Assembly (NCBI RefSeq): GCF_019880555.1
Contig: NZ_JAINVU010000005.1
Span: forward strand, 186,001 to 250,000
DNA from: Hephaestia mangrovi
Lineage (GTDB): Bacteria > Pseudomonadota > Alphaproteobacteria > Sphingomonadales > Sphingomonadaceae
Direction: 5' to 3'
DNA: 64,000 nucleotides
Shown: in pieces, positions 11,616 through 17,158 of the stretch
Numbering within the stretch: the first letter of the stretch is position 1
Layout of the letters: every line of letters begins with the position of its first letter
Notes under the pieces: generated by a model
What the model saw: only the letters and a program-made list of their open reading frames with translations
Databases searched by the model: none
Told to the model about the DNA's origin: nothing
Translations under genes and position numbers: made by a program

Positions 11616-12433
11616 GGAACGGGCGTGGCGCCGCCGGGCGCATCGAATTGCTGCAGCGCCTGCTCGGCGGCGTGCCCGGCGGGGCTGTTGGGCGCCAGCG
11701 TAACCGCGCGGCGCCACGCCGCCTTGGCGCTCGGCTCGTCGCCGCTTTTCGCCGCGATGTTGCCGGCCTCGAGCTCGACCGGCGCCGCGTTCGGCGCGCG
11801 CGATTCGGCCTCGGCAATATCCTTGTGCGCGCGATCGAGATCGCCCATCCGCCGCGCCAGCGTCGCCGACAGCAGCCAGGCGAGCGAATCCTGCGGCACC
11901 GCCGCCAGCGCCTGATCGAGATCGGCGCGCGCCGCCGCCAGGTCTCCGGTCGCGACCAGCGCGCGGGCACGATCGAGCTGCGCCTCGCCGCGCTGGCGCT
12001 GGTCCAGCGTGCCGGCCGCCAGCGCGGCATCGAGCGCCGACTTCGCTCCCGCCGCGTCTCCGGCGGCGAGCCGTGCATTGCCCGCCTCCGCCCAATAGGC
12101 CGCCGCGCGATCGTCCTGCGCGGCCTGCGCCGCCTTGGCCGCGGTGACGAACTCGTCGCCCGCCGCCTGCCACTTGCCCTGATTGGCATAAGCGACGCCG
12201 AGACATTGCTGCGCGACGAACCCGCCGCCGTCGATCTGCCACTGATTGGCGCGCGTCTCGGCCTTTTGCGGATCGCTGACCGCGAGTTGCAGGCAGCCGT
12301 GGTAGCGCACCTCGTCGGGCGCCGGCGGCCCGACGACGCCGCCGATCGAACTACGCGTGCCGATCGACGATTGCGGCGTGTCACCGGGCTGGACGGCCTG
12401 TTGGGCGGCGAGGAGAAACGGGATCAGGAGCAA
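11603..12433 (-). CDS. secreted TPR-repeat protein
   Basis: About 276 residues with an N-terminal hydrophobic export signal (LLIPFLLAAQQA). The mature part has tetratricopeptide-type helical repeats from about residue 65 onward, recognisable as LGVAYANQGKW, GNARLAAGDAAGAKSALDAAL, RALVATGDLAAARADLDQAL and AAWRRAVTLAPN. The TTG at 12433 has GAGGA 8 bases upstream and overlaps the hydrolase stop by 10 bp; an in-frame GTG at 12478 would give 15 more residues. It probably acts as a protein-protein scaffold in the periplasm; partner unknown. Follows the alpha/beta hydrolase gene on the same strand. Confidence 0.8.
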   Translation of the reverse strand: MLLIPFLLAAQQAVQPGDTPQSSIGTRSSIGGVVGPPAPDEVRYHGCLQLAVSDPQKAETRANQWQIDGGGFVAQQCLGVAYANQGKWQAAGDEFVTAAKAAQAAQDDRAAAYWAEAGNARLAAGDAAGAKSALDAALAAGTLDQRQRGEAQLDRARALVATGDLAAARADLDQALAAVPQDSLAWLLSATLARRMGDLDRAHKDIAEAESRAPNAAPVELEAGNIAAKSGDEPSAKAAWRRAVTLAPNSPAGHAAEQALQQFDAPGGATPVPQSR

Positions 12434-13137
12434 GCGAGCACGTCCTCGATGGCACGGATGATGAGCGCGATGTCGCACGCGCGCGACATCCGGTGATCGC
12501 CATCCTTGACCAGCCAGGTCTGCACGTCGGCTGAACGAAGCGCGCCGGCGATCAGCGGCGCCCGCGCCCAGGGCACGTCGCGATCGGCCTGCCCCTGCAC
12601 GATCCGCACTGGCCCGTCATAGGCGATCTCGCCGTCGAGGACGTGGAGCCGCTCGCCCGCTTCCCAGAACGCCCGCGTGGTGACGGTCGGCTGGTCCGAA
12701 TAAGGCGACTCCTCGAGCACGCGGCCGTGCGCGGCAAAATCGCGCTTCTGCGCGTCGGTGAAACCCCAATCGGTGAAATCGGGCGCGGGCGCGATGCCGA
12801 CCAGCCCCGCCACCTTCTCCGGCCGCGCGATCGCGGCAAGCAGCATCAGCCAGCCGCCCATCGACGAGCCGACCAGCACCGCCGGCCCCGTGATCGTGTC
12901 GAGCATCGCCAGCGCGTCGTCGCGCCAGTCGGCCAGGGTGAAATCCTCGAACGCGCCCGGGCTCTCGCCGCAGCCGCGATAATCGAAGCGGAGGAAGGCG
13001 CGGCCGGTTTCCCGCGCCCAGATTTCCAGCGCGACCGCCTTGGTGCCGCTCATGTCCGAGGCATAGCCGGGCAGGAAAACGACCGTGGGAGAGGCGCCCG
13101 CGGTGCGATGATGGGCAAGCCGGGGGGAGTCGGTCAT
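12424..13137 (-). CDS. alpha/beta hydrolase, ABHD10-like
   Basis: 237 residues, cytoplasmic. Serine nucleophile elbow GSSMGG, the acid in GQADRDVP and the histidine in DGDHRMS give a complete triad. VVFLPGYASDMSGTKA and FDYRGCGESPG form the oxyanion side. The arrangement resembles the ABHD10/YqiA-like esterase and thioesterase group, which removes acyl groups from proteins or small molecules. Substrate not inferable. ATG at 13137. Coupled to the downstream TPR gene by overlap. Confidence 0.87.
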   Translation of the reverse strand: MTDSPRLAHHRTAGASPTVVFLPGYASDMSGTKAVALEIWARETGRAFLRFDYRGCGESPGAFEDFTLADWRDDALAMLDTITGPAVLVGSSMGGWLMLLAAIARPEKVAGLVGIAPAPDFTDWGFTDAQKRDFAAHGRVLEESPYSDQPTVTTRAFWEAGERLHVLDGEIAYDGPVRIVQGQADRDVPWARAPLIAGALRSADVQTWLVKDGDHRMSRACDIALIIRAIEDVLACS

Positions 13138-13296: not shown

Positions 13297-14193
13297 TCAC
13301 TTTGCCAGAAACGCGTCGAGCGCCGCCTGGAATGCCGCTGGCTGGTCGAGCATCACGAAATGCGCGCTGTCGCCAACCGGCACGAAGGTAACGTTCGGCG
13401 CCTTGGCATATTCGGCCTTGTAGAAGGCGTCCGCCCGATCCTTGGGCAACTGGTCCGACCACGGATAGACCAAGGTGATCGGCGTCGCGATGGCCGTCAT
13501 GTCGGGGCGCAGGTCGGTAGTCATGTCCTCGTACATCGCCTCGCCGGAGACACGCGGATCGGCCTGTTTGAACCACGCCGCCACCTTCGCGCGGCTGTCG
13601 GGCTTGAGCGCCAGGGTGTTAGCCGTCGCACTCGCCGCCGCGTCGTTGGCGGGCCGGCCGTAGCTGGCGACCTCCCGGTCGCGCATCGCCTTCGCCTGCG
13701 GCTCGACCTGCGCGACCGTCGCGCCGGGCAGGAAGATATCGCCGACATAAGGCAGCGAATCGACCACCATCAGCTTGCCGACATCGGCCGGGTGCGCGTG
13801 CGCGAGCATCAGCGCAACCAGCCCGCCCATCGAATGGCCGACCACCGCCGCGCCCTGCAGCTTGTTCCTGGTGATATACGAATCGAGATCGCCAACCACA
13901 CCCTCGAGAATGCCGGGCTGCGTGTTGGCACCGGGATCACCGCCGCCGAAACCGTTGACCTGAACCAGGATCACGCGGTGATCGCTGGCTAGACCGGGGG
14001 CGACGCCATCCCACACCGCGCGTGGCGAGGAGAGGCCGGGGATCAAGATCACCGGCGCCCCCTTGCCGATCGCCTCGATCGAGATGTGGGCGGTATGTTC
14101 GGACGACGGCGCGGCGGCATGACCCGGCTGCGGATGCAGGATCGCCAGGGGCATGGCGGCGGACAAAGCGATACGGGCGAGAAAGCGGATCAT
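13297..14193 (-). CDS. secreted alpha/beta hydrolase
   Basis: 298 residues with a signal peptide (MIRFLARIALSAAMPLAILH, then PQPGHAA). Nucleophile elbow GHSMGG, acid Asp in YPWSDQLPK, histidine in GDSAHFVMLDQP. It resembles proline-iminopeptidase or esterase-type hydrolases. The ATG at 14193 overlaps the XRE regulator stop by 4 bp, making this the last gene of a three-gene operon (membrane protein, regulator, hydrolase). A periplasmic hydrolase controlled by an XRE repressor suggests an envelope substrate, but that is inference. Confidence 0.87.
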   Translation of the reverse strand: MIRFLARIALSAAMPLAILHPQPGHAAAPSSEHTAHISIEAIGKGAPVILIPGLSSPRAVWDGVAPGLASDHRVILVQVNGFGGGDPGANTQPGILEGVVGDLDSYITRNKLQGAAVVGHSMGGLVALMLAHAHPADVGKLMVVDSLPYVGDIFLPGATVAQVEPQAKAMRDREVASYGRPANDAAASATANTLALKPDSRAKVAAWFKQADPRVSGEAMYEDMTTDLRPDMTAIATPITLVYPWSDQLPKDRADAFYKAEYAKAPNVTFVPVGDSAHFVMLDQPAAFQAALDAFLAK

Positions 14194-14399
14194 TGCTCAT
14201 TCTCCTTCGACGGGCTCGCGAAGACGTCTTCGATGGCGAGCCCGAACAATTCGGCGATCTTGAACGCGAGCGGCAGCGAGGGATCGTAGCGGCCGGTTTC
14301 GATCGCATTGACGCTCTGGCGCGAAACCTCGAGCCGCTCGGCGAGATCGCTCTGGCTCCAGTTGCGCTCGGCACGGAGCACCTTGAGGCGATTGTTCAT
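14190..14399 (-). CDS. XRE-family transcriptional regulator (YozG/Cro-like)
   Basis: 69 residues, almost entirely one helix-turn-helix domain: LKVLRAERNWSQSDLAERLEVSRQSVNAIE with recognition helix around SRQSVNAIETGRY, then FKIAELFGLAIEDVF. This compact form is typical of repressors paired with a small membrane protein. It overlaps both neighbours by 4 bp. The promoter of its operon carries inverted repeats (14833-14880) suited to binding a small dimeric repressor, so autoregulation is likely. Confidence 0.92.
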   Translation of the reverse strand: MNNRLKVLRAERNWSQSDLAERLEVSRQSVNAIETGRYDPSLPLAFKIAELFGLAIEDVFASPSKENEQ

Positions 14400-14812
14400 T
14401 CGTCGCCCCCTGCCATCCGGTCCCTGATCGCGAGGACGCCCTGGACGATGCCGAAAGCCGCGCACCACAGCGGAAACGCGAGATAAACCGGCGGATGGCC
14501 GACCATGCCGGTATTTTCGAGGAAACCCCAGACGGTTGCAACGGCGAGCAGGATGCCCGTACCCCACAGCATCGACACGATCAGGCGGTTGCGGATGAAC
14601 TCGTCGCGCTCCTCCACCAGATAAAGACCCATCACCAGGATCACGCCCAGCAGCGGCAGGGTCGGCAGGATCGACAACATCGCCAGCGCCAGCCCGGCAG
14701 GATGATGCGCGTCGGCATAGCGGTTCGCGGCGAACAGGATCAGCACATAGGCCGTCATCAGCGGCATGAACCGCAGGATATACCGACGCTGTGCGGGATT
14801 CCCCTTGCGCAT
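14396..14812 (-). CDS. four-helix inner-membrane protein paired with XRE regulator
   Basis: 138 residues with four predicted membrane helices (about 13-30, 43-64, 80-100, 107-128). A conserved cytoplasmic EERDEFIRNR sequence lies between helices 2 and 3. This acidic-arginine motif after the second helix is common in membrane proteins found next to YozG-type regulators; their function is not established. The ATG at 14812 has AAGGGAG about 6 bases upstream. First gene of the operon, about 24 nt after the inferred transcription start. Confidence 0.82.
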   Translation of the reverse strand: MRKGNPAQRRYILRFMPLMTAYVLILFAANRYADAHHPAGLALAMLSILPTLPLLGVILVMGLYLVEERDEFIRNRLIVSMLWGTGILLAVATVWGFLENTGMVGHPPVYLAFPLWCAAFGIVQGVLAIRDRMAGGDE

Positions 14813-14832
14813 GACAAACTCCCTTCGAATCA

Positions 14833-14880
14833 GTAAAGGGAGCTTTACAGTCAAGTTTGCTTGTCTGTCAAGCGTGCTTG
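14833..14880. promoter_or_regulatory. operator-like inverted repeats over the XRE operon promoter
   Basis: Two copies of CAAG-N4-CTTG (14852-14863 and 14869-14880, centres 17 bp apart) sit inside the longer direct repeat GTCAAGnnTGCTTG. One lies in the -35/-10 spacer and one overlaps the -35. A third inverted repeat, GTAAAG-GGAG-CTTTAC (14833-14848), covers the -10. Positions fit repression by the operon's own XRE protein. Confidence 0.65.
14844..14871 (-). promoter_or_regulatory. sigma70-type promoter of the membrane protein / XRE / hydrolase operon
   Basis: On the minus strand a perfect -35 TTGACA (14871-14866) and a -10 TGTAAA (14849-14844) are separated by 16 bp. The predicted transcript starts near 14836, giving a leader of about 24 nt that contains the ribosome site. 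The promoter lies between the stop codon of the Mur ligase gene and the operon start. Confidence 0.7.
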
Positions 14881-16296
14881 CTATTCTGTCGCTGTCGCTT
14901 TCCTTTTGATCGACGCCAGCATGTCCGCCGCCAGCACGCTCAGCGTGTCGTCTCGCGCGCCCATCACCACGATGCGATCGCCCGCTCGCGCCACGGCAAC
15001 GAGATGCGCAGCGGCGGCCTCGCGAGCGGGAATATGGCGGGCATTCGCGCCGGCGGCGGCGATGTCGGCGACGATATCGGCGCTGGTCACTTCGCGCGCC
15101 ACGGTGCCGCCCTGATAGACCGGATCGGGCAGCACGAGTTCGTCATCATGCCGCAGCCGCTCGACGAAACTCGCCACCAGTTCGCGCCGCATCTGCTTGA
15201 GCGGGCCATAGCCGTGCGGCTGAAACAGGATCAGCAGGCGACCGGGAAAGGCGTGCAGCGTATCGAGCGTGGCGGCGATCTTGTCGGGGTTGTGGCCGAA
15301 ATCGTCGATCACCGCGACGCCGTTCGCCTCGCCGACCAGCTCGAATCGCCGCCTGAGCCCGGTGAACCCGCCGATCGCCGCCACGGCGTTGGCCAGCGAC
15401 ACCCCCGCCGCGCCCGCCGCCCCGATCGCCGCCAGCGCGTTCGAGACATTGTGGCGGCCGGGCACTTGCAGCGAGACGCGAATCGGCGGCTCGCCCTGCT
15501 CGGCAATGTCGAAATCGACCCCGAACGGGCGTTCTTCGAGAGCCGACGCGACAAGATCGGCATCGCCGTCGATCGCGACGGTCAGCCGCCGCTCGGGCGG
15601 CAATGCCATCGCCAGCGCGGCGCCTTCTGCATTGTCGAGGTTGATCACCGCGCGGCCCGCGCGGCCGATGAAATCGCCGAACAACGTGCGCAGTTCATCA
15701 AGCGACTTGTGATCGACGCTGACGTTGTTGAGCACCGCGATCTGCGGCCGATAGAGCGCGATCGATCCGTCGCTTTCATCGACCTCGCTGACGAACGCAT
15801 CACCGGCGCCGACCAGCGCGCTGGCGAACGGCGCTTGCGGCGAAACGAAATTCTTCATCACCGCACCGTTCATCACCGTCGGATCGCGCCCCACCTGGTA
15901 CAGGATCCAGCCGATCATGCCGGTGACGGTCGATTTGCCGCTGGTGCCGGCGACGCCGATCGGCAGCACCGCGGCATTGAACAGCGAGGCATTGAGCTCG
16001 GCGCGCGTCATCCGCGCCGCGCCGAGGCGATTCGCCGCGACGATATCCGCCACCGTCTCTTCGACCGCCGCCGAGGCGACGACGATCTGATCGGCCGAGG
16101 TCACGCCGCTGCCGTCCTGCGCGAACAGCGCGATGCCACGCGCCCTCAGCGCATCGAACTTGGCGGGCACGCGCCCGGCATCGAGCGCGCGGTCCGATCC
16201 CGCCACGGTTGCGCCGCGCGCGGCGAGGATCATCGCCAGCGGCATCATGCCCGAGCCGCCGATGCCGACGAAGAAGTAGGATTTGCCGTCCGTCAT
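14881..16296 (-). CDS. Mur ligase family protein (MurC/Mpl type)
   Basis: 471 residues with the MurC-type order. An N-terminal Rossmann domain begins [14 protein letters not shown]; the ATPase P-loop GTSGKST is at 117-123; NNVSVDHK and the [12 protein letters not shown] segment follow; the C-terminal domain contains [16 protein letters not shown]. MurC and Mpl usually have GTHGKTT, so the P-loop is divergent. The divergent neighbour is an LD-carboxypeptidase, which makes a peptidoglycan-recycling role (joining recycled peptide to UDP-MurNAc, as Mpl does) more likely than the essential MurC step. ATG at 16296; the gene ends directly at the XRE operator repeats. Confidence 0.85.
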
Positions 16297-16342: not shown

Positions 16343-17158
16343 ATGCGCATCGCGGTCGTCGCACCCGCACGAGAGCTTGATCGAGGCACCGCGGCCAGGG
16401 CCGAGGCGTTCGTCGCGATCGCCTTTCCCGAAATCGAGCTGATCGTCGACCCGCAATGCTTCCTTTCCGACGGCCATTTCGCCGGCAGCGATGCCGAGCG
16501 CGCCGCGGCGTTCGTGCGACGCGCCAACGATCCGGCAATCGACGCGATCTGGTTCGGCCGCGGCGGCTATGGCTCGAATCGCCTGCTCGACGCGGTGATG
16601 CCCGAACTCGGCCCGGCGGCGCGCGACAAGGCCTATCTCGGCTATTCGGATTGCGGCTTCCTGCTCGGCGCGCTCTACGCCCGGCGGATCGGGCGACCGA
16701 TCCACGGGCCGATGGCGATCGACATCAATCGCGAGGGCGGCGACGCGACCGTCACCCGCAGCCTCGCCTGGCTGACCAGCGGCGACCGCGCCGGCCTCGA
16801 GCCCGGGCTCGGCGATCGCCCCGCGGCGGCGTTCAATCTCGCGATCCTTACCGCGATGATCGGCACGCCCTGGCTGCCCGATCTCACCGATCACGTGCTG
16901 CTGATCGAGGAAGTCTCCGAACCGCTCTACCGGATCGATCGGATGCTGTTCCAGCTTGCCCATGCCACGCAGCTGAAGGGGCTCGCCGGGGTCCGCCTCG
17001 GCGCGGTGCGCGACGTGCAGGAAAACGACCCGCCATGGGGCGAAAGCCTGAAAACGATGATGACGCGCTGGTGCGGCGAGATGGGCGTGCCGTATCTCGG
17101 CCGCGCCGAAATCGGCCATGATGCGGCAAATCGCGTCGTGCCGTTCGGCCTCGCCTGA
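16343..17158 (+). CDS. LD-carboxypeptidase, peptidase family S66
   Basis: 271 residues. The serine nucleophile lies in LGYSDCG (Ser102) after the FGRGGYGSNRLLD segment. The acid is probably in LIEEVSEPLYRIDRML and the histidine in GRAEIGHD near the C-terminus, the S66 Ser-Glu-His order. HGPMAIDINR is the other conserved stretch. Known members (LdcA) remove the terminal D-Ala from murein tetrapeptides in the cytoplasm. ATG at 16343 with AAGGAG upstream; 46 bp from the divergent Mur ligase start, so the two may share a control region. Confidence 0.9.
   Translation: MRIAVVAPARELDRGTAARAEAFVAIAFPEIELIVDPQCFLSDGHFAGSDAERAAAFVRRANDPAIDAIWFGRGGYGSNRLLDAVMPELGPAARDKAYLGYSDCGFLLGALYARRIGRPIHGPMAIDINREGGDATVTRSLAWLTSGDRAGLEPGLGDRPAAAFNLAILTAMIGTPWLPDLTDHVLLIEEVSEPLYRIDRMLFQLAHATQLKGLAGVRLGAVRDVQENDPPWGESLKTMMTRWCGEMGVPYLGRAEIGHDAANRVVPFGLA

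Follow-up and report, generated by a model that had tools for sequence, protein, structure and literature searches.

An array of AAG-N4-CTT inverted repeats lies on the promoter of a three-gene operon of Hephaestia mangrovi that encodes a small membrane protein, a small XRE-family regulator and an alpha/beta hydrolase, and sequence comparison makes it likely that this array is the operator for autoregulation of the operon by the XRE protein. The promoter of the operon that encodes the regulator carries a conserved operator both among near relatives, with paired sites at 80 of 81 loci (the best 80 of 540 loci plus the window, as we call the whole 64,000-nucleotide stretch of DNA that was analysed), and among distant ones, with at least two sites at 33 of 35 loci with a similar XRE protein vs 0 of 15 with a more diverged one.

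Results

Inverted repeats overlie the promoter and the first-gene start

The minus strand of the window across the array reads AATAGCAAGCACGCTTGACAGACAAGCAAACTTGACTGTAAAGCTCCCTTTACTGATTCGAAGGGAGTTTGTCATG. It contains three AAG-N4-CTT inverted repeats, sites A, M and B, whose centres (14874.5, 14857.5 and 14840.5) are separated by a uniform step of 17 bp. The features of the operon and the array are as follows (site scores are from the 22-bp model described below).

13297..14193, minus strand: alpha/beta hydrolase gene, 298 aa, accessory member of the operon
14190..14399, minus strand: XRE (HTH_3) regulator gene, 69 aa, HTH_3 E = 4e-16
14396..14812, minus strand: membrane protein gene, 138 aa, four transmembrane helices predicted, invariant D70-E71, without Pfam family
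14810..14831, minus strand: degenerate fourth site C, GATTCGAAGGGAGTTTGTCATG, centre 14820.5, score 7.5, 20 bp from B
14830..14851, minus strand: operator site B, ACTGTAAAGCTCCCTTTACTGA, centre 14840.5, score 24.9, presumed -10 in left arm
14844..14849 (14849-14844 as read), minus strand: presumed -10 hexamer TGTAAA, matching the -10 consensus TATAAT at four of six positions
14847..14868, minus strand: operator site M (middle), ACAGACAAGCAAACTTGACTGT, centre 14857.5, score 19.0
14864..14885, minus strand: operator site A (upstream), AATAGCAAGCACGCTTGACAGA, centre 14874.5, score 21.3, -35 hexamer in right arm
14866..14871 (14871-14866 as read), minus strand: -35 hexamer TTGACA

An earlier reading of this DNA from its letters (the sequence-only reading) had pointed to two CAAG-N4-CTTG repeats, which we confirmed at 14852-14863 and 14869-14880, and to one GTAAAG-N4-CTTTAC repeat, confirmed at 14833-14848, where site B is a perfect inverted repeat. 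The 17-bp step it gave for the two CAAG sites was correct, but it missed that all three sites keep to this step; its literal word was GTCAAGnnTGCTTG, and the central bases vary between sites and loci. Also not in that reading was site C, a degraded copy (AAGGGAGTTT) that spans the Shine-Dalgarno region and the start of the first gene. The first bases of TTGACA belong to the right arm of site A and the rest extends into the gap, and a 16 bp spacer separates the hexamer from TGTAAA. Both hexamers do overlap sites as had been claimed, but 'exactly within' them was slightly generous wording, as the first base of TGTAAA lies one position outside site B.

The operon and its XRE protein

The gene set of the operon had been named correctly by the sequence-only reading but in the wrong order; the true order is membrane protein, XRE, hydrolase. 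Both operon junctions (membrane protein/XRE and XRE/hydrolase) are ATGA overlaps, and an ATGA overlap at the XRE start was found in 59 of 80 loci (best 80 of 540). In 53 of these best 80 of 540 loci a hydrolase gene begins 150-400 nt away from the start of the XRE gene, and the hydrolase was rejected as a core member because it adjoins the XRE gene in only those 53. Downstream of the operon's hydrolase, in the same orientation, lies a second alpha/beta hydrolase gene (237 aa, 12424-13137, minus strand).

Immediately upstream of the operon is a MurC/Mpl-like ligase gene of the same orientation (14881-16296, minus strand), whose end coincides with the beginning of the site A core. This Mur ligase is intermediate between MurC and Mpl (273 bits for TIGR01082, under the cut-off of 335, and 142 bits for TIGR01081), and its gene is divergent from that of a Peptidase_S66 LD-carboxypeptidase (16343-17158, plus strand); the two look like a peptidoglycan-recycling pair beside the operon. 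A ligase homologue was also seen upstream in many of the 80 loci (best 80 of 540).

The XRE protein belongs to the HTH_3 (XRE/Cro-C1) family, with a PF01381 score of 59.2 bits against a gathering cut-off of 23, and its HTH domain is intact. Its closest PDB match (E = 1.3e-25) is 9k3w, a 65-aa XRE protein entered as 'Transcriptional regulator, PbsX family', which matches residues 2-61; no paper bearing this entry code was found in the literature search. Among characterised systems, CylR2 (PDB 1utx, E = 1.2e-13) is the nearest in sequence. Assignment as the XRE antitoxin of a type II toxin-antitoxin system was not supported, with the HipB, HigA and Y4mF models all below their curated cut-offs.

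The repeats are not a product of chance

A chance origin of the repeats is excluded. In the organism's own genome (3,788,905 bases; 3.79 Mb), the tandem pattern AAGN4CTT-N6-8-AAGN4CTT gave two overlapping matches, both at this locus, vs none for the reversed-pattern control. GWMAAGN4CTTKWC matched only sites B and M (reversed-pattern control, 6), and TAAAGN4CTTKAC only site B (reversed pattern, 2 and 3 on the two strands). The searches of this genome with the full and tandem motifs therefore returned this locus only, and we claim no regulon elsewhere in it; confinement of the full motif to this locus is what a dedicated local regulator would show.

Across the best 80 of 540 loci, the stretch from -500 to -400 relative to the XRE start held 150 copies of AAG-N4-CTT vs 71 in the 475,660 positions outside it, and between -520 and -390 the spacing of the arms was sharply defined, with 152 matches for N4 vs 0-23 for each of N0-N3 and N5-N12. 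A 22-bp score model was built from the exact cores in the -520 to -390 interval of the 80 loci themselves and is in that respect circular; the exact-core counts and the comparison of 35 with 15 distant loci (below) are independent of this circularity. At a score above 9 the model found 47 matches in 482,700 positions of reversed loci, and at a score above 13 it found 252 in 116,867 positions within 1.5 kb upstream of the XRE gene vs 3 in 248,186 positions downstream. AAG-N4-CTT words inside the XRE gene (18 at +150 to +200) were set aside as codons of a conserved stretch; all 18 had negative scores.

Paired sites are conserved in near relatives, with TTGAC fixed in site A

The near set was obtained by scanning a species-level genome collection with the XRE protein and taking the best 80 of 540 confirmed loci, which with the window made 81 loci; at each we used the site pair that scored best among those with 30-36 bp between the sites. 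Upstream of the operon, 80 of the 81 (best 80 of 540 plus the window) carried a pair with a distance of 31-34 bp, the sole miss being L101, which had no such pair. The distance was 34 bp in 41 of the pair-bearing loci, 32 bp in 25, 33 bp in 13 and 31 bp in 1. The sequence-only reading had offered to give up its idea if the repeats proved unconserved upstream of orthologous operons; the idea survived this check and also the comparison by XRE subfamily described below.

At all 80 pair-bearing loci (best 80 of 540 plus the window; the same loci are meant throughout this paragraph) the right arm of site A contained TTGAC, while the other arms varied at these bases, from which we infer that operator and -35 are fused. 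The earlier proposal of an operator over the -35 is thus well supported. Its counterpart over the -10 holds as to the overlap of TGTAAA with site B but is weaker, since the distance of the outer sites varies (31-34 bp in near loci and more in distant ones). The -10 is less certain, in our reading of the loci, because at a pair distance of 32 bp no good hexamer keeps a fixed distance; with variable spacing the sites are not always on the same promoter bases. A middle site was present in 29 of the 80, at 16 bp (15 loci), 17 bp (10) or 18 bp (4) from A, the window representing the 17+17 type of array. Since 51 of 80 lack it, the 17-bp triple stack is not essential. A further site 3' of B, on the start of the first gene, was found in 60 of 80, at 21 bp in all but one of the 60, where the distance was 22 bp. 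Arrays also precede extra membrane-protein genes that lengthen the operon, the XRE gene then being farther away (e.g. L058, L060, L061 and L064). At least two tandem membrane-protein genes were seen between array and XRE gene at L058, L060, L061, L064, L116 and L152.

The sites track the XRE subfamily across classes

From the class 289 genomes were drawn and from the phylum 299; they yielded 51 distant loci (L116-L166), 50 after L138 was dropped. At least two sites above score 13 were present in 33 of 35 loci whose XRE protein was at least 57% identical vs 0 of 15 with lower identity (Fisher p = 6e-11; the cut was picked after seeing the data and sits in a gap between about 52% and 57%). By kinship, the 35 high-identity loci divided into 10 of 11 with sites in the organism's own family, 14 of 15 in other families of the class and 9 of 9 in other classes of the phylum; here as in the near set the loci are related by descent, and a genome may belong to more than one set, so that the counts are not independent events. 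The two high-identity loci without a site pair were L156 (one site) and L163 (none). Similarly, when exact cores were counted without the model, 65 were found in 52,384 upstream positions of the 35 loci (at least one in 32 of 35) vs 0 in 22,404 positions of the 15. Distances between neighbouring sites ranged from 16 to 44 bp in the distant loci, bar one overlapping 5-bp call (L161), indicating that the geometry drifts while the site persists. We conclude from these comparisons that, on the evidence of the sequences, the operator follows the XRE subfamily across classes.

The membrane partner

A homologue of the membrane protein was found directly upstream of the XRE gene in 80 of 80 near loci (profile search; best 80 of 540). 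Over all loci the profile matched in 111 of 130; it found nothing in the 15 low-identity loci and gave an upstream match in 30 of the 35 high-identity distant ones. At L117, L118, L153, L156 and L163 the upstream reading frame is of another kind, with four hydrophobic stretches and DE at its centre, and the profile match of L118 lies downstream. The membrane partner thus seems to exist in several diverged forms (L117, L118, L153 and L163, beside similar XREs). It was present in 91 of 199 family genomes drawn.

D70 and E71 are invariant in an alignment of 55 sequences. The predicted structure is confident and helical (pLDDT 94.4, pTM 0.78), with helices at 6-36, 41-48, 51-67, 71-100 and 109-133 and four hydrophobic stretches; D70-E71 lie at the turn before helix 71-100, and in this model the positive-inside rule would place that turn in the cytoplasm. 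The membrane protein of the window had no match in Pfam or NCBIfam, and its 55 relatives gave only scattered weak matches in Pfam (lowest E = 0.00056, DUF389, 2 members). Four distant partners gave nothing above cut-off. A PDB profile search reached E = 0.53 at best, and Foldseek returned 60 matches in the PDB with E of 10 or less, of which not one reached 0.001.

Discussion

Since the sites are conserved at the same gene pair in many other bacteria, the XRE protein is the probable regulator of its own operon, and its intact HTH domain and kinship to CylR2, reported to bind the promoter of the operon it controls, argue for autoregulation. The sequence-only reading, which had proposed tight, cooperative autorepression by the XRE protein, is to that extent supported in part. 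The XRE protein might instead be an activator or a two-way switch, as are some restriction-modification controller proteins, that at low level would fill some sites and aid RNA polymerase and at high level would fill all and repress. Several sites of unequal score would suit such a switch, as would an extra site 21 bp upstream of A, found in 17 of the 80 pair-bearing loci (best 80 of 540 plus the window). However, a dimer should block at the -35, the presumed -10 and the ribosome-binding site, which carry the best-conserved sites, and none of the window's four sites lies wholly upstream of the -35; we regard this alternative as unlikely. It is more improbable still, by some distance, that the sites belong to another regulator of these operons with XRE as an incidental partner: binding of XRE to the sites is deduced from sequence, which leaves room for such a regulator, but the sites track the XRE subfamily across classes (33/35 vs 0/15) and, unlike those of a global regulator, occur as full motifs nowhere else in the genome. 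That the repeats mainly reflect promoter and Shine-Dalgarno constraints, without a dedicated operator, has next to no chance of being correct even though TTGAC and AAGGAG are common promoter and ribosome-binding words, because both arms and the exact N4 are kept (152 vs 0-23 matches; best 80 of 540 loci), the CTT right arms after the Shine-Dalgarno and the middle site are also kept, and loci of more distant XREs have no sites.

In the autoregulation model that we favour, an XRE dimer would occupy each AAG-N4-CTT inverted repeat, and several dimers may bind together. Sites A, M and B, 17 bp apart, would blanket the -35, the spacer and the presumed -10, and the further site would cover the ribosome-binding site in most relatives, so that bound XRE would exclude RNA polymerase and keep the operon low. 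At 10.5 bp per turn the 17-bp step corresponds to ~1.6 helical turns and puts neighbouring sites on different faces of the DNA, and by the same arithmetic a step of 21 bp, as between A and its upstream neighbour or between B and C, keeps the two sites on one face. Translation of the genes would be coupled through the ATGA overlaps. In the least certain step, the four-helix membrane protein, produced together with XRE from the same mRNA, would probably set XRE activity at the membrane; for example, the cytoplasmic loop with the invariant Asp-Glu might hold or release XRE, and the state of the membrane would thereby feed back on the operon.

Lambda cI/Cro and SinR are multi-operator autorepressors in which XRE-fold dimers bind inverted-repeat promoter sites. 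The array described here likewise has inverted-repeat sites on a promoter, but differs from them in its AAG-N4-CTT sites, its steps of 16-18 bp or 31-34 bp, the site on the ribosome-binding site and the membrane-protein partner.

In the CylR1/CylR2 system of Enterococcus faecalis, the promoter is reported to be bound by the repressor CylR2, and induction to require CylR1, a suspected membrane protein of small size (PMC3709268; PMC11343131). As there, a small XRE protein (CylR2 has 66 aa) is encoded with a small multi-helix membrane protein, with no phosphorelay (PMC3709268), and here the XRE protein is homologous to CylR2 and the membrane-protein gene adjacent. The likeness of the membrane proteins is one of description, four helices being predicted here, unlike the three described for CylR1, and whereas CylR1/CylR2 control a divergently transcribed lantibiotic operon (PMC3709268), the array here heads the pair's own operon, whose third gene encodes a hydrolase. 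The operon has no lantibiotic cluster, and no further full sites were found in the genome; therefore 'works like' CylR1/CylR2, and not 'is a', is the appropriate description. On this analogy, the four-helix partner with the invariant Asp-Glu suggests a membrane-linked switch. CylR2 is compared with other XRE dimers in PMC8960796.

Conserved Xre + membrane-protein gene pairs in many bacteria (YoaS-like, PA2784-like and PA4076-like), which the present pair resembles in make-up, are listed and excluded from toxin-antitoxin systems by Makarova et al., 2009 (PMC2701414); unlike the present analysis, the available text of that paper yielded no operator or mechanism. No description of the AAG-N4-CTT operator was found in the literature searched, which largely excludes subscription papers, so that one may be in print.

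More tentatively, and with the odds against it, the pair could stand for a broad proteobacterial class of phosphorelay-free membrane switches, in which a four-helix protein with an invariant cytoplasmic Asp-Glu would capture or release a tiny XRE repressor, and in which a shared AAG-N4-CTT code on the -35, and often on the ribosome-binding site, would block initiation at several steps, code and partner occurring together across classes.

Taken together, this is a genuine and well-conserved operator; its logic is ordinary, and the gene pair at which it lies is widespread though little known. It provides a concrete operator code and promoter for an XRE/membrane-protein pair of which no functional account was found in the literature searched, and a reporter built on this operator could be used to identify the signal that the membrane protein senses.
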